From NCBI GenBank assembly GCA_030019025.1, contig JASEFR010000011.1:15339-54270 (forward strand): a stretch of 38,932 bases of DNA, read 5' to 3'. The DNA comes from a bacterium (lineage in GTDB: Bacteria > Hydrothermota > Hydrothermia > UBA1063). A program made the translations under genes and the position numbers. Positions within the stretch are counted from its first letter, which is position 1. Every line of letters begins with the position of its first letter. Shown here in pieces: positions 29,713-37,513 of the stretch. A model generated the notes under the pieces. It did no database searches. It was not told the origin of the DNA and saw nothing but the letters and a program-made list of their open reading frames with translations.

Positions 29713-29952
29713 AAAAGACCTTTAGTTCTAAAACCAATTTCACATGCCAACATCATATTCTAAGTTATAGGATAATGCCGATGGCATGCATAGACAAGCC
29801 CGAGAAAATTTGAAGAAGAAAATGTCCGTGCTGTGATCAACGTTGGGAAACCTGTACGATCACGTTCCAGAAACAAAAATTTTTGGTGAATTGAAAACTC
29901 AGACTGTTGCACGTAATGCCGAAATTAAAGTATTTATAAAATTTCTACAAAA
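29713..29952. other. Gap without a supported gene
   Basis: This stretch lies between the leader of the ABC operon and the pilin terminator. On the plus strand, a frame starting at 29786 stops after 16 codons and then stays open (LYDHVPETKIFGELKTQTVARN...) to the terminator, which could be the debris of a lost gene. I recognise no family, and no terminal repeats or transposase remains are visible. Confidence 0.3.
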
Positions 29953-29982
29953 ATTTTGGGGCCCCGAGAGGGGCCCCAAAAT
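29953..29982 (-). terminator. Rho-independent terminator of the pilin gene
   Basis: Arms ATTTTGGGGCCCC (29953-29965) and its exact reverse complement (29970-29982) flank a GAGA loop. On the minus strand the GC-rich stem is followed by a T-run. It starts 18 bases after the pilin stop codon and would also work partly in the other direction. Confidence 0.92.
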
Positions 29983-30000: not shown

Positions 30001-30504
30001 TTACTGAAGCGTCCAGTTACCTACACCTGTGAAATCGTCCTGTTGTGGAACAGATGTAGGTGGCGTAATATCGCCAGGGAAATCCACCCCTATGAATGCT
30101 CTATCTCTCCAGTAAAAGATACCCTGTACATCGGAATCCGCACCAAAGCCCGTATCACCCTGTGTATGGTGAGTAGCCATTGTATAAGAGGCATTTGTAG
30201 CATCAGTAAGAGCCTGGAAGAAAACCGAGGTGGACAAGTTGAAAGTATCAACTGCATTCGTGGGGCCACCTGTCCAAGCAACGGCAATTAGTCCAGAATC
30301 CGGACCTACAGCATCAGGGTAATGTTGCCAATCTGCAAAAAATGCTTCATATGTCGTTCTTACATTTCTTAGATCGCTTTCTGCTGCACCGTTGTATGCC
30401 CTTATTCTGTATCTTGCAAACTGCGGTATGGCTATTGCGGCCAGGATCGCAATGATTGCGATCACTATGAGTAGCTCTATTAGTGTGAAGCCTTTACGCC
30501 TCAT
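30001..30504 (-). CDS. pilA: Type IV pilin (prepilin), major pilin candidate
   Basis: The 167-residue protein has a short basic leader MRRKG and the prepilin cleavage site before FTLIELLIVIAIIAILAAIAIPQF, with Glu at mature position 5, followed by the assembly helix. The C-terminal globular region has no cysteines and is rich in Thr, Asp and Phe. It follows pilR on the same strand but has its own sigma-54-type promoter, an AGGAGGT site and a strong terminator. It is therefore expressed as a single abundant transcript, which supports the major-pilin role. Confidence 0.93.
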   Translation of the reverse strand: MRRKGFTLIELLIVIAIIAILAAIAIPQFARYRIRAYNGAAESDLRNVRTTYEAFFADWQHYPDAVGPDSGLIAVAWTGGPTNAVDTFNLSTSVFFQALTDATNASYTMATHHTQGDTGFGADSDVQGIFYWRDRAFIGVDFPGDITPPTSVPQQDDFTGVGNWTLQ

Positions 30505-30545
30505 GTTTATACCTCCTGTTTAAGGTTTTGTGTTAATAAAATATC

Positions 30546-30561
30546 TGCAAACCTTGTGCCA
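30546..30561 (-). promoter_or_regulatory. Sigma-54 promoter of the pilin gene
   Basis: The minus strand reads TGGCACAAGGTTTGCA, which fits the sigma-54 consensus TGGCAC-N5-TTGCA exactly, with GG and GC in the -24 and -12 positions. The predicted start near 30535 leaves a leader of about 30 bases with an AGGAGGT ribosome site. The sigma-54 activator PilR is encoded directly upstream. Confidence 0.88.
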
Positions 30562-30605
30562 AAATATAAACCTTTTATTTTCAGGCCGTTTTGGAGGTTT
30601 GCTAT

Positions 30606-30637
30606 TTGCATTTTGCAAATCTTTTTGCAAAATGCAA
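30606..30637. promoter_or_regulatory. Perfect 14-bp inverted repeat, candidate PilR enhancer site
   Basis: TTGCATTTTGCAAA (30606-30619) and its exact reverse complement (30624-30637) flank TCTT. Each arm is itself a near-palindrome (TTGCA-TTT-TGCAA), so the element could hold two dimers. It ends at the pilR stop codon, and its centre is about 85 bases upstream of the predicted pilin transcription start, a normal distance for an NtrC-type activator. No T-run follows on the minus strand, so a terminator role is unlikely. Confidence 0.65.
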
Positions 30638-31972
30638 CTATTTTTTTTCATGTCCTATCTCCTTTAACTTTCTGTAAAGAGTTGAAAGATCAATGCCGAG
30701 GACCTTTGAAGCCTCCCTTTTATTATATCCTGTCGACTTGAGGACATTCAAAATGTGCTCTCTCTCAACCTCTTTCAAACTCTTGAGTCTTCTTTCTTCA
30801 AATGTCGTTTTAATAAGCAGGCTTCGAACTTCTCCTGTCTTTATAACTCTGCCCTCATCAGAGGTGATAACAAGCTGTTCAACGAAATGTTCCAATTCTC
30901 TCACATTACCAGGCCAATCGTAAGATTCGAGAATCTCAACTATGCCACTTTCTATTCCTACTTTTTTACCGTACTTTTTCGAGTATCTGTTCAAAAAGTA
31001 ATTAAACAAAAGCCCTATATCTTCTTTCCTCTCCCTAAGAGGGGGAATATAAATGCTCGTAACATTAAGCCTGTAGTATAGGTCCTCCCGGAACTTGCCT
31101 TCCTTAACAAGCTCCGGCAAATTTCGGTTTGTTGCAGCAATTATCCTGACATCAATCTTTTCTTCCCTCGTGCCACCTAAAGGAGTTATTACCTTGAAAT
31201 CAAGCACCCGGAGGAGTTTTGCCTGCAACCGGGGTGATGCTTCAGAAATCTCATCAAGAAATAAAGTACCCCCCTCTGCCACCTTAAAAAGACCGTCTTT
31301 ATCCGAAAACGCTCCGGTAAAGGCACCTTTCTTGTAACCGAAAAGTTCGCTTTCCACCAGTTCCTCGGGCATAGCTGCCATGTTCAAGGCTATAAAGGGT
31401 CTATCCTTTCTCGGTGAGTTGTAGTGAATAGCTCTCGCTACCAGTTCTTTTCCCGTACCCGTCTCTCCGTATATTAGGCAGGTGGTATCGTATGGTGCAA
31501 TCTGTTTTATTTTATCAAGAACTTCCAGCAAAGATTTTGATCTACCCACTATTTCATACTCTTTTAAAAACTTAAGCTCTTTTTTAAGGCGAAGGTTTTC
31601 CTCTTTAACAGCCAAGTACTTCTCAGCCCTTGCAAGGGCTGCTTCAAGGTCTTGTAATCTGAAAGGCTTCAGCAGAAAGTCGTCTGCCCTCCTTCTGATT
31701 GCTTCAATGGCAGAATCGAGAGTTCCGTAGGCAGTTATCAAAATTACGTAGATATCAGGATTCAACCTTTTAAGTTCACTTAAAAGATCCATCCCCGCCA
31801 TTTCTGGCATTTTTAGATCCAGAATGGCAAGATGAGGATTAATTCTTTCCGCTTCACTTAGCGCGGATACCGGATTTTCGAAGGCAAAGACTTCATATCC
31901 CGATGCAGTGAGATACTTTTCAATGCTTACAAGGATACCTTTGTCATCATCCACAACTAATACTTTTTTCAT
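30638..31972 (-). CDS. pilR: Sigma-54-dependent response regulator, PilR type
   Basis: The 444-residue NtrC-family activator has three domains. The receiver (about 1-120) carries phospho-acceptor D52 in LAILDLKMPEM. The AAA+ sigma-54 interaction domain carries Walker A GETGTGKE, the sigma-54 contact GAFTGA, and FLDEIS. The C-terminal Fis-type HTH is EREHILNVLKSTGYNKREASKVLGIDLSTLYRKL. All key elements are intact. It overlaps pilS by 4 bases and lies directly upstream of the pilin gene. Its likely target is the sigma-54 promoter found there. Confidence 0.94.
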   Translation of the reverse strand: MKKVLVVDDDKGILVSIEKYLTASGYEVFAFENPVSALSEAERINPHLAILDLKMPEMAGMDLLSELKRLNPDIYVILITAYGTLDSAIEAIRRRADDFLLKPFRLQDLEAALARAEKYLAVKEENLRLKKELKFLKEYEIVGRSKSLLEVLDKIKQIAPYDTTCLIYGETGTGKELVARAIHYNSPRKDRPFIALNMAAMPEELVESELFGYKKGAFTGAFSDKDGLFKVAEGGTLFLDEISEASPRLQAKLLRVLDFKVITPLGGTREEKIDVRIIAATNRNLPELVKEGKFREDLYYRLNVTSIYIPPLRERKEDIGLLFNYFLNRYSKKYGKKVGIESGIVEILESYDWPGNVRELEHFVEQLVITSDEGRVIKTGEVRSLLIKTTFEERRLKSLKEVEREHILNVLKSTGYNKREASKVLGIDLSTLYRKLKEIGHEKK

Positions 31973-33489
31973 GATAATTTGAATTCAAGAATAACATCCG
32001 TCCCTTTTCCAGGAACGGAATAAATTAACAGATTACCACCGTGGGCCTTCATGATTCTCTCACAAATAGCAAGTCCAAAACCGGTTCCACCTTTCTTTGT
32101 GGTAAAAAAAAGTTCTTTCGACCTTTTAAGGACATCACTATCCATACCTTTTCCATAATCTCTGACAATGACTGCTGGATTTTTCGCCAGATAAATCGAC
32201 CCATCGATAAGTTTTATCTGCTCCCCAGGCTTGAGAAATAAAGTATCAATATATTCCTTGGTATCTGCTTCTATACTATTGCGGAAGAGATTAATAAAAA
32301 GCTCCTCTAATTTTGTCTCGTCAGCTGGTATCATAAAATCAGGAGGAATGCTGTTCCTGAGTTTATAATTCCCTTGATACAACGAGACTACGTTTTTAAA
32401 GGCTCTTGCAACGACATCAGCAATCTTTACCTCGGCGATCCTCAGCTCTGGAATTTTTGCATATTGCAAAAAGCGGTTAACAACCTCCGATAGCCTTTCT
32501 GCATCGTACATCACGCTCCTTAAAAGTTGTTCGTCAGGATTGACCTTTTTTGACAAAATGAGTTCCATTGCCATATTTATAGCCTGTACGGGATTCCTTA
32601 TTTCATGGGCAAGATTTGCCGAAAGTTCACCGAGAAAAGCAAGCCTCTCCAGCTCCCTTCTTTCATTTTCAAGTTTCTTCACCTCAGTCAGATCCTGAAA
32701 AACAACGATTCTTGTCCCATCTTTGAGGATTTTTAGGGAATAACCAAGAACTTTTCCTCCTATTTCAAGCTCACTTCTTAAAGTAGCCTTTTCCTCCAGG
32801 ACCAACCCGAGGAACTGTGAAAGTTCAGAATCACTCAAGATCTCCCTTGCACTCTTGTTAGCAAAAATTATCTCGCCTGCTGGAGAAATCGTCAAAATCC
32901 CACTTGGCACAATACTCAGTATCTCCTCGCTGGAAAGTCTGTACTTAATAAAGTCCTTCTCCTGACGCTTCAACAGATTGCTGAAGTAGAGAGTTACTCC
33001 CGTCAATGAAGCAAAAATGAAGATATAGACAAGAAAATAGGTAAGTTTTTTAGTAAAAGGAGAAGGGGCTATAGAAAGATGCTCACCGGGCATATTATAA
33101 TGAAAGCGGGTCAAAAAGTATAGAAAAAGTAAGGCTATTAAGGATTGAACAATCCCCCCTTTTAACCCCTGAAAATATACCACAAATACAATGGGTAACG
33201 CGAAAAGAAAAGTTATCCTGGAATCAATTCCCCCTGTGGCAATAGACATGACTGCGACCACAATGTCAAAAAGGACGAGAGAAATCCAGAAAGGCCATAA
33301 AGTGTTTTCAGGAAAGAGAAGGAATAAAATCAAGTTAGCAAGGATCGTTAGGAATGAAATACCAATGAAAAGTTCAGTTAAAGAATCTGCGCCAATTCCT
33401 TTTAAATAAATTAAAGCTACTAACGTTATGAAGAGTACTACAAAAGAATTTACGCTTAAAAAATACCTTAGCTCTCGCCTTCCAAGCAA
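31969..33489 (-). CDS. pilS: Membrane sensor histidine kinase, PilS type
   Basis: The 506-residue kinase has about six N-terminal membrane helices (residues 10-175), a PAS-like domain (about 185-270), and the phospho-acceptor H295 in LSANLAHEIRNPVQAI. The N-box LFINLFRNSIEA, G1 box DYGKGMD and G2 box GGTGFGLAICERIMKAHGG follow. Six helices followed by PAS matches PilS, which in Pseudomonas senses pilin in the membrane. It lies between pilC and pilR, 1 base after pilC. Confidence 0.92.
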   Translation of the reverse strand: MLGRRELRYFLSVNSFVVLFITLVALIYLKGIGADSLTELFIGISFLTILANLILFLLFPENTLWPFWISLVLFDIVVAVMSIATGGIDSRITFLFALPIVFVVYFQGLKGGIVQSLIALLFLYFLTRFHYNMPGEHLSIAPSPFTKKLTYFLVYIFIFASLTGVTLYFSNLLKRQEKDFIKYRLSSEEILSIVPSGILTISPAGEIIFANKSAREILSDSELSQFLGLVLEEKATLRSELEIGGKVLGYSLKILKDGTRIVVFQDLTEVKKLENERRELERLAFLGELSANLAHEIRNPVQAINMAMELILSKKVNPDEQLLRSVMYDAERLSEVVNRFLQYAKIPELRIAEVKIADVVARAFKNVVSLYQGNYKLRNSIPPDFMIPADETKLEELFINLFRNSIEADTKEYIDTLFLKPGEQIKLIDGSIYLAKNPAVIVRDYGKGMDSDVLKRSKELFFTTKKGGTGFGLAICERIMKAHGGNLLIYSVPGKGTDVILEFKLS

Positions 33490-33490
33490 G

Positions 33491-34690
33491 TTATTTTATC
33501 GTTCCTGCAAGGCCAAAAATAGGCAAGTACATTGCAATTAACATTCCGCCAACAAAAACACCAATAATCACAATCATTATAGGTTCAATTGTTGATGCAA
33601 GTGTAGAAACTGCTGTATCCACCTCATCGTCATAAAAATCAGCAATTTTAGAAAGCATATCACCAAGTCTTCCACTTTCTTCCCCAACGGAAATCAAATG
33701 CACCACAAGAGGTGGAAAGATCCCTGTTTCCTGAATGGGTTTGGTGATGGTTTCACCCGCTGAAATTTTCTGAGCTACCTTATCCATTGCCTTTTCAAGA
33801 ACCTTGTTACCCGAGGCTTTACCCGTAATTTTCAAGCTCTGTAAAATTTCAACACCACTGGATATTAAGATGGATAACGTCCTTGCAAAGCGAGCTATTG
33901 CGACCTTTTTAATTAACGGGCCAAAGATCATAACCCGCATAGTGAAGTTATCCCAAAGGAACTTACCTTTTTCGGTTTTGATAAAGCGTCTGAGGGCCAA
34001 TATGGCAACAATAAGTGCACCGGCTATGATAAAGAAATATCTCTGCAAGAATTTACTTATCCCAATTACAAAGAGAGTAGGTCCTGGTAGTTTTGCACCA
34101 ACTTCTTCGTACATTTTGGCAAAGGAAGGAATTACAAAAAGGAGCATAGCCGTTGAAACTACAATTAAAACTAAGAAGACCACAGCAGGGTAAGCCATGG
34201 CGGACACGACCTTTCTTTTTATTGAATCCATCTTTTCATAGAACGTGGCTGCCTGTTTTAGGGTATTTACAAGCTGTCCGGATTGTTCACCAACAGTCAC
34301 CATCTGGACTATTAAATCCGGGAAAATACTCGGGTGCTCTTTCATAGCATCGCCGAGACTCTTACCACCTTCAACATCCCGCTTTATTTTAAGAATTGCG
34401 TCTTTCAATTTTCTTTTTTCGGTCTGCTCACCAAGAATTTCAAGGGCACGTGTTAAAGAAACCCCAGATTCAATCATGACTGCAAATTGCCTGCAGAAGA
34501 TTGCAAGGTCCTTAAATCCTGGCTTCCCTCCAAAGGGTAGGCTGAATCCCTTCCGCTCTTCTTCCACCTTGACAACTATAAGACCTATATTTCTAAGCCT
34601 TGCCACCACCTCATCACTGGATTTGGCATTTACCACACCTGTTCTTATCCTTCCTTCTTTATCCTTTGCAGTGTAAATAAAACGTGCCAT
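33491..34690 (-). CDS. pilC: Type IV pilus inner-membrane platform protein PilC
   Basis: The 399-residue protein has two T2SSF domains (FCRQFAVMIESGVSLTRALEIL in the first and FARTLSILISSGVEILQSLKIT in the second), each ending near membrane helices, three in total. The N-terminal FIYTAKDKEGRIRTGVVNA is typical of the family. It links the PilB/PilT motors to the pilus base. AAAGGAGG precedes the ATG; pilT lies 12 bases upstream. Confidence 0.95.
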   Translation of the reverse strand: MARFIYTAKDKEGRIRTGVVNAKSSDEVVARLRNIGLIVVKVEEERKGFSLPFGGKPGFKDLAIFCRQFAVMIESGVSLTRALEILGEQTEKRKLKDAILKIKRDVEGGKSLGDAMKEHPSIFPDLIVQMVTVGEQSGQLVNTLKQAATFYEKMDSIKRKVVSAMAYPAVVFLVLIVVSTAMLLFVIPSFAKMYEEVGAKLPGPTLFVIGISKFLQRYFFIIAGALIVAILALRRFIKTEKGKFLWDNFTMRVMIFGPLIKKVAIARFARTLSILISSGVEILQSLKITGKASGNKVLEKAMDKVAQKISAGETITKPIQETGIFPPLVVHLISVGEESGRLGDMLSKIADFYDDEVDTAVSTLASTIEPIMIVIIGVFVGGMLIAMYLPIFGLAGTIK

Positions 34691-34702: not shown

Positions 34703-35785
34703 TTATCTTCCAGATTTGGGTGCCATGCTGACCATTTTTTTCAACTCCTCGGGCCGAGGTGAAGCAAGCAACGCGGTTTGCAGGGTGATAAGTCCCTGCG
34801 TAAAGAGGCTTGCAAGAGACATGTTCATTGTCTGCATTCCAAAAGCCTGACTCGACTGCATAATACTATACATCTCATGAGTCCTTGATTCACGAATAAG
34901 GGTTTGAACGGCAGGAGTAGCAAGTAATACTTCCGAGGCCAGCACCATTCCTTTACCACCCGCCCGCGGCAGGAGCTTTTGAGAGATTACTCCTTCCAGA
35001 ACGCTGGCAAGTTGCACCCTTACCTGATCCTGCTGATAAGGAGGGAAAACGTCAATGATACGGTTCACAGATTCAATTGCGGTACCTGTGTGCAAGGTTG
35101 CAAGAACCAGATGGCCCGTTTCAGCAGCAATTAAGGCGGATTGAATGGTTTCAAGGTCCCTCATCTCACCCACCATTATCACATCGGGGTCCTGCCTCAA
35201 TACGTACTTCAAAGCAGTTGCAAAAGATTTAGTATCCTGTCCAACTTCTCTCTGAGCAATTACAGCTTTTTTATTCCTGTGAAGGTATTCAATTGGGTCC
35301 TCAAGAGTAATAATATGGCACGCCCTCATCTGATTTATTCTATCTATCATAGCAGCCAGAGTTGTGGACTTTCCACTACCCGTAGGGCCAGTAACCAGAA
35401 TCAATCCCTTATCTTTTTCCACGAGGGAGTGTACTACCGGTGGCAACCCAAGGGATTCTATAGGGGGGATCTTGAAAGGAATCCTTCTTATCGCACAGGC
35501 GACAGTTCCCCTCTGGAAGAAAGCATTGCATCTAAATCTTGATAAGCCTTCGATGGAAATAGCGAAATCCAGCTCCAGCTCATTTTCCAACTTAGCTCTT
35601 TGGGACTCGGAAAGAAGACTGTACACGAGATTTTTCACATCTAATGGTGTGAGCACTTTGTATCCTGACGGAACAAGGGTTTTGTCAATCCTGAAATAGG
35701 GCTCTGCACCTGCGGAGAGATGTAAATCCGTTGCGTTTTTTCTTACCATTTCTTCCAAAAGTTCTTTAATTGTAACATCTGGCAT
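34703..35785 (-). CDS. pilT: Twitching motility retraction ATPase PilT
   Basis: PilT depolymerises the pilus. The 360-residue ATPase begins IKELLEEMVRKNATDLHLSAGAEPYFRID. It has Walker A GPTGSGKST, the Asp box ITLEDPIEYLH, Walker B PDVIMVGEMRDLETI, the His box ATGHLVLATLHT, and the retraction motif as AVQTLIRE. Length and all motifs are normal for PilT rather than PilU. It lies 3 bases after pilB. Confidence 0.95.
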   Translation of the reverse strand: MPDVTIKELLEEMVRKNATDLHLSAGAEPYFRIDKTLVPSGYKVLTPLDVKNLVYSLLSESQRAKLENELELDFAISIEGLSRFRCNAFFQRGTVACAIRRIPFKIPPIESLGLPPVVHSLVEKDKGLILVTGPTGSGKSTTLAAMIDRINQMRACHIITLEDPIEYLHRNKKAVIAQREVGQDTKSFATALKYVLRQDPDVIMVGEMRDLETIQSALIAAETGHLVLATLHTGTAIESVNRIIDVFPPYQQDQVRVQLASVLEGVISQKLLPRAGGKGMVLASEVLLATPAVQTLIRESRTHEMYSIMQSSQAFGMQTMNMSLASLFTQGLITLQTALLASPRPEELKKMVSMAPKSGR

Positions 35786-35788
35786 AAA

Positions 35789-37513
35789 TTATCCCTCCAT
35801 AGTTACTCTAATAACTTCTTCAAGAGAAGTTAAGCCTCTCTGGAATTTGAGGAGGGCAGCTTCTCTCAGCGTCAACATGCCCTCCTCCCTTGCCTTTTCT
35901 CTAATTTCATGAATTGGGCGTTCCTCAAGAATCATTTCCCTGATTGTCGGAGTAATTAACATTACCTCATAAATACCTTCTCTTCCCTTATATCTTGAGC
36001 CCTTGCAAACATCACAGTTGCCTTCCCCTTCACCATATACAACTTTTCCTGCAAGGAAGCTCGGATCAAGGCCAACTAATTTAAGCTTCTCAGGCGTTGG
36101 TTGAACAGGTTTCTTACACTGGGGGCACAGTTTCCGAACAAGACGCTGAGCCATAACGAGAATCAAAGAATCAGCAATAAGATAAGGTGGAATCCCCATA
36201 TCCACAAGACGGGCAATTGTACTGGGAGCGTCATTGGTGTGCAATGTTGAAAGCACCAGGTGACCTGTTAATGCTGCCTTAACTGCAATGGAAGCGGTTT
36301 CACTGTCACGAATCTCACCGACCATTATGATATCTGGGTCCTGACGCAGGAAAGATCTCAGGGCAGCAGCAAAAGTCAAACCGATTTCTTCTCTCACCTG
36401 AACCTGGTTTATTCCCTCAAACTCGAACTCTACAGGATCTTCAGCAGTCATAATGTTAACTTCCGGCCTATTCAAAATAGATAGCGCTGAATACAATGTC
36501 GTGGTCTTACCACTTCCTGTTGGCCCTGTCACCAAAATCATACCATAAGGTCTTGTAATAGCATACTCAAACTTTTTCAATGAATCAGGTTCAAATCCGA
36601 GTTTTTTAAGATCCAGAGTAAGACTACTTTTATCCAGAATTCTCAACACCACTTTCTCGCCATGCTTAACCGGAAGCGTAGAAACACGGAAATCAATAAT
36701 CCTTCCCAGTTTATCTTTAATCTTTAGATGGCCATCCTGTGGTAATCTTCTTTCCTCAATTTTTAGATTGGACATGATCTTTACAACTGAAACAATGCCC
36801 CGGGCATACCTATATGGTGGGGGTTCTATTTCTCTTAGTGTTCCATCAATCCTAAATCTTATCCTCAATTTTTTCTCAAAAGGTTCAATGTGAATATCGC
36901 TGGCCTTTCTCTCTATAGCTTCCCTCAATAGAGTCAACACATAGCGCTGAACAGTAGAATCCTTTGCAGCTGCAGCGGCATCCGTAAGCTCCTCCTCTTC
37001 TTTTTCTTCTACTACTTCCAGCTCCTCAACCTGAGATTCTTCAGCAAGTTCTTTAGCAATCTCCGATACTTCGGATTTCTCTCCATAGGCTTTAATTATC
37101 AGATTCTGAATCTTTTCAGGGCTCATAAGTAAAGGTTCAATACTAAAATTAGTCAAAAATCTCAAATTATCAAGAACTTCCCATTTTGTGGGATCAGCCA
37201 TTGCAACAAACAAAACTCTACCCTTTCTTCTTAAAGGAAATACTTCATTCTTCTCACAGAACTCCCTCGGAATCAATTGTACTAAAGTAGGATCAATAGG
37301 TTCATTTCCAAGTTCAGCAATCTGAACCTTAAACTCTCTGGCCAAAATCTTTAAAAGTTGCTCTTCTGTCATAAGTCCCATTTCCTGGATCACTTTATAC
37401 GGGGACTTATTGGTCCTTTTTACCTCTTCCCTGATCTTCATCGCCGTTGCTTCGTCAACCAGCCTGTACTTTAATAGTACAGAAACTACCTTTCCAACAT
37501 CCATTTTCCTCAC
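35789..37513 (-). CDS. pilB: Type IV pilus extension ATPase PilB
   Basis: PilB powers pilin polymerisation. The 574-residue protein has the MshEN-like N-terminal domain (about 1-150) and an acidic linker with a Glu/Val stretch (about residues 155-180). It carries Walker A GPTGSGKTT, the Asp box TAEDPVEFEF, Walker B PDIIMVGEIRDSETA, the His box LTGHLVLSTLHT, and a zinc site from CPQC and CDVC. It is the first gene of the pil operon, with a good promoter and a GGGAGGTGAGG site. Confidence 0.96.
   Translation of the reverse strand: MRKMDVGKVVSVLLKYRLVDEATAMKIREEVKRTNKSPYKVIQEMGLMTEEQLLKILAREFKVQIAELGNEPIDPTLVQLIPREFCEKNEVFPLRRKGRVLFVAMADPTKWEVLDNLRFLTNFSIEPLLMSPEKIQNLIIKAYGEKSEVSEIAKELAEESQVEELEVVEEKEEEELTDAAAAAKDSTVQRYVLTLLREAIERKASDIHIEPFEKKLRIRFRIDGTLREIEPPPYRYARGIVSVVKIMSNLKIEERRLPQDGHLKIKDKLGRIIDFRVSTLPVKHGEKVVLRILDKSSLTLDLKKLGFEPDSLKKFEYAITRPYGMILVTGPTGSGKTTTLYSALSILNRPEVNIMTAEDPVEFEFEGINQVQVREEIGLTFAAALRSFLRQDPDIIMVGEIRDSETASIAVKAALTGHLVLSTLHTNDAPSTIARLVDMGIPPYLIADSLILVMAQRLVRKLCPQCKKPVQPTPEKLKLVGLDPSFLAGKVVYGEGEGNCDVCKGSRYKGREGIYEVMLITPTIREMILEERPIHEIREKAREEGMLTLREAALLKFQRGLTSLEEVIRVTMEG

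Follow-up and report, generated by a model that had tools for sequence, protein, structure and literature searches.

In an uncultured bacterium, what drives transcription of a type IV pilin gene, and what is the inverted repeat that separates this gene from the preceding pilR-type gene? The questions arise from a stretch of 38,932 nucleotides (the window), which lies on contig 11 of a genome of 1.73 Mb (58 contigs, 98.9% complete). Judged by the regulator protein, the nearest named relative is WOR-3 bacterium UBA5631 (candidate division), with 71% identity. The reading that we favor, at a probability of about 0.82, is that the pilin gene is transcribed from a sigma-54-dependent promoter with a tandem two-site enhancer, worked by the adjacent PilSR-type system.

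Gene order and the predicted pilin promoter

The genes of the locus follow each other on the minus strand in the order pilB, pilT, pilC, pilS-type kinase, pilR-type response regulator, and type IV pilin. The features, listed in the direction of transcription, are:

35789-37513, minus strand: pilB, above the TIGR02538 cut-off
34703-35785, minus strand: pilT, above the TIGR01420 cut-off
33491-34690, minus strand: pilC (T2SSF)
31969-33489, minus strand: pilS-type histidine kinase, about six hydrophobic segments (membrane segments called from hydropathy alone), then HisKA and HATPase_c
30638-31972, minus strand: pilR-type response regulator with receiver, AAA+ domain (GAFTGA at residue 216), and Fis-type HTH, helix DLSTLYRKLKEIG
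30625-30637, minus strand: distal palindrome TTGCATTTTGCAA, exact, centered at about -96 from the inferred start; predicted activator site 1
30606-30618, minus strand: proximal palindrome TTGCAAAATGCAA, exact, centered at about -77; predicted activator site 2
30546-30561, minus strand: sigma-54 -24/-12 element TGGCAC-N5-TTGCA, TGGCACAAGGTTTGCA, exact and kept in relatives
30512-30518, minus strand: ribosome binding site AGGAGGT, read from the sequence
30504, minus strand: ATG of the pilin gene
30001-30504, minus strand: type IV pilin gene, 167 aa, MRRKGFTLIELLIVIAIIAILAAI, with N_methyl (PF07963) and IV_pilin_GFxxxE above cut-off
29953-29982, minus strand: strong intrinsic-terminator-like hairpin with T run, 3′ of the pilin gene

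Regulator domains, kinase domains, and linkage to pilB, pilT, pilC, and a pilin gene are all present, as in a PilSR-type system. The pilR stop and the pilin start are 133 bases apart, and this interval houses the inverted repeat, the sigma-54 element, and the ribosome binding site. Together with a promoter in the interval, the hairpin at 29953-29982 would make the pilin gene a transcription unit of its own. We also noted a remnant of a second prepilin gene at 29730-29807 (minus strand; 26 residues, 50% identical, E 2e-5). Matches to this second gene lie between the pilin gene and an ABC transporter in the related genomes G001, G003, and G004, the one in G004 with one stop; in the window, the gene seems to be decayed.

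In the sigma-54 element, the gap between GG and GC is 10 bp, as such an element requires. It is the sole match in the window at up to 1 mismatch (mean in shuffled sequence, 0.45), and base composition predicts about 0.013 exact matches in the window. From its position, we infer a pilin transcription start near 30535. The gene for the sigma factor itself, rpoN, was found in the genome as one match (C17:3845-4318; 145.7 bits against a cut-off of 22.8) in an open frame of 413 aa. Thus, what an earlier sequence-only reading of this DNA had described as an exact sigma-54 promoter was found at 30561-30546 on the minus strand, and the absence of rpoN, which that reading had named as grounds for rejecting the promoter, does not apply. 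The same reading had reported a perfect 14-bp inverted repeat with symmetric arms directly after the pilR stop, which is indeed present; its distance to the start had been put at about 85 bases, and the actual gap to the ATG is 101 bases.

Tandem palindromes and the hairpin alternative

The two arms of the inverted repeat (30606-30619 / 30624-30637) pair without mismatch over 14 bp around a 4-nt loop, and extension brings the repeat to 17 bp at 94%; its first base directly follows the pilR stop. Each arm holds one exact palindrome of the form TTGCA-N3-TGCAA, and the step from site 1 to site 2 is 19 bp. The most fitting description of the repeat is a tandem pair of self-symmetric palindromes that jointly also form a hairpin. 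The first base of the distal palindrome lies 76 bp from the TGG of the -24 element.

Single palindromes of this form are only mildly rare: three exact copies were found in the window and seven in the genome, a mild excess over the approximately two expected per genome. Since about two are expected, lone copies next to no sigma-54 element were taken as chance-level. These comprise the third exact copy in the window (32457-32469, inside pilS), beside which no strict sigma-54 match was found, and four further copies in the genome (L002, L003, L004, and L008), none of which adjoins any of the genome's eight strict sigma-54 matches. For two palindromes in tandem at a spacing of 19 bp, the expectation from base composition is about 2e-6 per genome.

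Conservation of the site was analyzed in two families of the order. In the family set of five genomes, pilR and the pilin gene are assembled together in four, i.e. the genome holding the window, G003, G001, and G004; the regulators of the latter three are 83%, 71%, and 58% identical to that of the window, respectively. All four testable genomes keep both palindromes (0-1 mismatch each) and the 19-bp step, and in all four the -24/-12 element lies 75-76 bp from the first palindrome. The tandem pattern drawn from this family was searched in nine genomes of the order at up to 3 mismatches. A second family (G005-G008), which had played no part in drawing the pattern, displayed a perfect tandem match in front of the orthologous pilin gene in four of four genomes, with the sigma-54 site 83-84 bp away. 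The tandem pair is thus present in eight of the nine order genomes, and their 16 palindrome copies carry 2 mismatches in 160 fixed positions. Near matches to the sigma-54 element were found in the same eight genomes. An additional tandem match at 3 mismatches was detected in G001.

The ninth genome, G002, showed no tandem match at up to 3 mismatches and contains neither a pilR nor a pilin orthologue. Because its contig starts inside pilS, it is uninformative on the link between pilR and the site; a co-loss of pilR, pilin gene, and site was considered and dropped, as the contig start explains the absence.

Gene order in the second family separates the site from pilR. In G005 and G007, the pilB-T-C-S-R operon lacks the pilin gene and an epimerase gene comes after pilR; the assembled pilR end of G008 is likewise followed by the epimerase (identity by Pfam PF01370, run on G005 and G008). 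In all four genomes, a frame of 451-452 residues (L143, L144, L145, and L146) precedes the pilin site in place of pilR; the one copy scanned (L145 in G006) had no Pfam match. As pilR is followed by the epimerase gene and not by the pilin gene in three of these genomes (G005, G007, and G008), adjacency to pilR does not account for the site. Its presence before the pilin gene while pilR lies elsewhere means that the element tracks the pilin gene and not the end of pilR.

These data bear on the alternative that the repeat acts at the RNA level, as a hairpin (terminator or processing site) that ends the pilBTCSR operon and is conserved as the end of pilR. The 156-nt stretch folds strongly (z = -5.73), the repeat exactly abuts the pilR stop, and its plus-strand copy scores as terminator-like. 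A weaker hairpin (-11.6 to -13.1 kcal/mol) is still possible in G005-G008, as some hairpin always remains because two tandem palindromes pair in part. Against this, no T run follows the repeat on the pilR strand, where the minus strand reads ATAGCAAACC, and in the terminator scoring only the plus strand gave a hit at the repeat. The central triplets of the arms are complementary in just 2 of 12 genomes, and the 32-mer, which folds at -16.0 kcal/mol in the window and G003, reaches just -7.2 in G001 and -4.4 in G004 with the palindromes retained. Moreover, the site precedes the pilin gene and does not follow pilR in G005, G007, and G008. The hairpin explanation, which we regard as very improbable, was set aside because the palindromes are kept and full pairing of the arms is not, and because the site is kept where pilR is elsewhere. 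A second inverted repeat near the promoter (GCAAACC...GGTTTGC), suggested by the fold, was not evident by eye in the relatives.

Hence, the sequence-only proposal of a sigma-54/PilR control region stands as far as promoter and enhancer are concerned, both being supported by conservation, and changes in its unit: in place of a single 14-bp repeat or the full hairpin, what is conserved is a tandem pair of 13-bp palindromes, TTGCA-N3-TGCAA, with a step of 19 bp.

Candidate binder and distribution of the site

Besides the pilR-type regulator, four other proteins with strong PF00158 matches (199-234 bits) are encoded in the genome holding the window, giving five in total; five weak matches (22-37 bits) were left out as not belonging to this class. 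For the other order genomes, proteins matching the regulator of the window at E up to 1e-30 were collected. Across the nine genomes, 49 enhancer-binding proteins were obtained, 48 of them with a readable HTH. Seven genomes each encode a single protein with the helix ST[LV]YRK, always the regulator nearest to the pilR of the window; the helix is absent from the rest of the 48. A kinase phosphorylation motif precedes the ST[LV]YRK regulator in G001, G003, and G004; in G005 and G007, a pilS-type kinase does so. No regulator with this helix was found in G002 and G006, both uninformative on account of the contig start in G002 and of the missing PilC in G006.

The adjacent PilR-type regulator is therefore the likeliest binder of the palindromes, a candidate suggested by its helix. 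It is improbable that the palindromes are a real enhancer read by another enhancer-binding protein. The four other strong PF00158 proteins would be candidates for such a role, and G006 retains pilin gene and site with the PilR orthologue absent from the assembly. However, none of the other readable proteins of the class carries the helix, and PilC is missing from G006 as well, so that its operon is probably unassembled. Palindromes of this kind suit many dimeric proteins, and an unrelated dimeric regulator or nucleoid protein, e.g. a repressor, could occupy them, with the sigma-54 promoter activated from elsewhere. However, the distance to the -24/-12 element hardly varies in either family (75-76 and 83-84 bp), as would suit an enhancer, which leaves this option with very little weight. 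One feature that counts against an enhancer is the 19-bp step, which corresponds to a non-integral number of helical turns.

With the adjacent regulator as the probable binder, the following course of events may be proposed. Promoter match, tandem palindromes, conservation, spacing, regulator and kinase domains, and rpoN enter it as read from the sequence; the regulator as binder, its control by phosphorylation, and the transcription start are taken over from what is known of the activator family. The PilS-type membrane histidine kinase would phosphorylate the PilR-type regulator encoded just upstream of the pilin gene. Dimers of the regulator would bind the two palindromes centered at about -96 and -77 and assemble as a hexamer, whose GAFTGA loops, with ATP, would open the closed complex of RNA polymerase and sigma-54 at 30561-30546. 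The resulting transcript would comprise the pilin gene alone, terminated by the hairpin at 29953-29982.

To what extent the same site occurs elsewhere was assessed at three levels. In the genome holding the window, the strict pattern TGGCAY-N5-TTGCW matched eight times. When the 250 bp preceding each match were examined, a palindrome with no more than 2 mismatches was found at one of these, the pilin promoter; at the remaining seven, the best upstream palindromes carry 3 or 4 mismatches. The search for palindromes near other sigma-54 sites, which had been suggested together with the original reading, thus returned the pilin promoter alone. Within the limits of such strict patterns, the regulator seems to have a single target in this genome. 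In the relatives, the strict sigma-54 pattern skipped sites that were found by scoring, among them those of the pilin genes of G006 and G133 and of ribonucleotide reductase. Two other exact TGGCAC-N5-TTGCA elements of the genome holding the window (L012 and L013, contig 9) stand without palindromes before frames whose beginnings by eye resemble those of secreted proteins, and these are likely targets of other activators.

At the level of the phylum, a scan of 147 genomes at up to 2 mismatches yielded 16 sites in 14 genomes, and the reversed pattern, used as a control, was found in 1 genome. Twelve of the 16 sites precede pilin-type genes, in the eight order genomes as well as in G026, G067, G133, and G016 (the last with pseudopilin-like genes downstream). 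As the four sites that gave the pattern are not independent evidence, we also state the count without them, which is 8 of 12. In G133, the -12 element of the promoter is weak and lacks the GC. Two sites from one genus (G017 and G024) precede ribonucleotide reductase genes and have a sigma-54-like site 72-73 bp away; identity of the gene was established from PF02867 and PF00317 on L180, with Pfam run on G017 only. For the remaining two sites (G017:C118 and G006:C44), neither an obvious target nor a sigma-54 site was found.

Taken together, conservation in eight genomes of two families and the phylum scan make the assignment of a putative sigma-54 promoter with upstream enhancer to the pilin gene well supported.

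Two of the other sites deserve description. In the ribonucleotide reductase pair (L180, plus strand, and L179, minus strand), tandem palindromes and TGGCAG-N5-TTGCA stand right before the reductase gene, on L180 at about 744-850, and the predicted transcript start falls very near the reductase ATG. Ribonucleotide reductase may thus represent another type of target for the palindromes. The site on G006:C44 (L151, 4837-4868) is a second tandem site in that genome with 1 mismatch; the next gene, at a distance of about 200 bp, is a small frame of cupin-like appearance by eye, and no good sigma-54 match was found beside the site.

Outside the order, 36 regions between pilR and pilin genes with an ST-YRK helix in the regulator were collected, of which three over 420 bases were left out. 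Among the resulting 33 regions, six had a palindrome at up to 1 mismatch (in 300 shuffles, 0.48 on average and 4 at most). Because at least one of these six (L068) overlaps the -12 element, the test was rerun upstream of the promoter only; seven regions in which the best sigma-54 match left fewer than 25 bases on its upstream side were omitted, and 26 remained. In this set, a palindrome with no more than 1 mismatch was seen in five regions, against 0.21 on average and 3 at most in 500 shuffles; with 2 mismatches allowed, the number rose to 12, against 1.99 on average and 7 at most. The reversed motif matched in no region. Not all of the 26 regions are independent, as close relatives contribute some of them (three of the five at up to 1 mismatch are Krumholzibacteriota). 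No palindrome within 2 mismatches was found in 14 of the 26, and in several Zixibacteria regions the nearest palindrome has 3-5 mismatches. The box is therefore widespread for regulators with an ST-YRK helix but not universal. In the distant genomes with pilin sites, G016, G026, G067, and G133, an ST[LI]YRK regulator is present among the 2, 5, 4, and 2 read, respectively; this is weak evidence, because the helix is common among PilR-like loci (68 of 95).

Comparison with known regulators

Control of a pilin gene by PilSR and sigma-54 is textbook knowledge; what appears to be new is the operator. The system of Pseudomonas aeruginosa (also Geobacter and Dichelobacter) shares with the window a membrane kinase, an NtrC-type regulator, pilBTC nearby, and a sigma-54 promoter with an upstream element before the pilin gene. 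The recognition helix of P. aeruginosa PilR presumably differs from that of the window regulator. The DNA hallmark of P. aeruginosa PilR is TGT-N11-AGA with nearby GTCT elements (PMC6058289), whereas the conserved element in the window is TTGCA-N3-TGCAA, present twice, and not of the GTCT type. Among the papers listed in literature searches, titles and the beginnings of abstracts did not describe this operator for a PilR or in WOR-3.

For the whole protein as well as for the HTH, the top-scoring solved structure was an NtrC-family regulator (PDB 4l4u / 4l5e), which we take to be Aquifex NtrC1. Its helix reads PLRTLYRRLKE in 4l4u, and that of the window regulator reads DLSTLYRKLKE (a comparison of the proteins).

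The closest counterpart of the operator comes from quorum sensing, in which LuxO controls the qrr small RNAs. LuxO presumably also carries a recognition helix of the ST-YRK type. A search of the literature for the helix letters gave no match, and no LuxO-named entry was among the 60 listed of 1,986 plasmid records. LuxO chains in the PDB search comprise at most 396 residues, and the match ends at residue 377. The window regulator itself, judged by its score, is not LuxO: it reaches 333.2 bits over residues 7-376 against an equivalog cut-off of 800 (NF041946), and here the target is a pilin gene and the partner a PilS-type kinase.

In the Vibrionaceae, the LuxO upstream site is the 13-bp TTGCAWWWTGCAA, according to a 2023 paper (PMC10162802), and both palindromes of the window match this box exactly. 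An operator specific to this lineage, as initially predicted, is thus not what was found, because the sequence equals the LuxO box as given there. The likeness extends to the class of protein, a group I enhancer-binding protein acting with sigma-54, and to the presence of two boxes upstream at qrr1 of V. fischeri (PMC10162802; a comparison by number of boxes). As stated in that paper, altering the C or the A of the box lowered both LuxO- and SypG-dependent expression of qrr1 in V. fischeri, and altering the G affected SypG only (PMC10162802).

For a pilus regulator of an uncultured phylum, the analysis provides a concrete candidate operator together with its spacing and a predicted single target, and it suggests that promoters in uncultured genomes may be readable by pattern. 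Tying this operator to that of LuxO would offer a handle on how the sequence of the helix sets the sequence of the operator in the activator family. Tentatively, one might go further and suppose a single operator code, TTGCA-N3-TGCAA read by an ST[LIV]YRK Fis-type helix, that serves a single promoter in the present lineage and is common to pilus regulators of the WOR-3 phylum and its relatives (Krumholzibacteriota, KSB1, and GN15) and to LuxO of Vibrio; the quorum-sensing box would then either have been recruited from an ancient pilus-type operator or have arisen convergently, as dictated by the shared helix.
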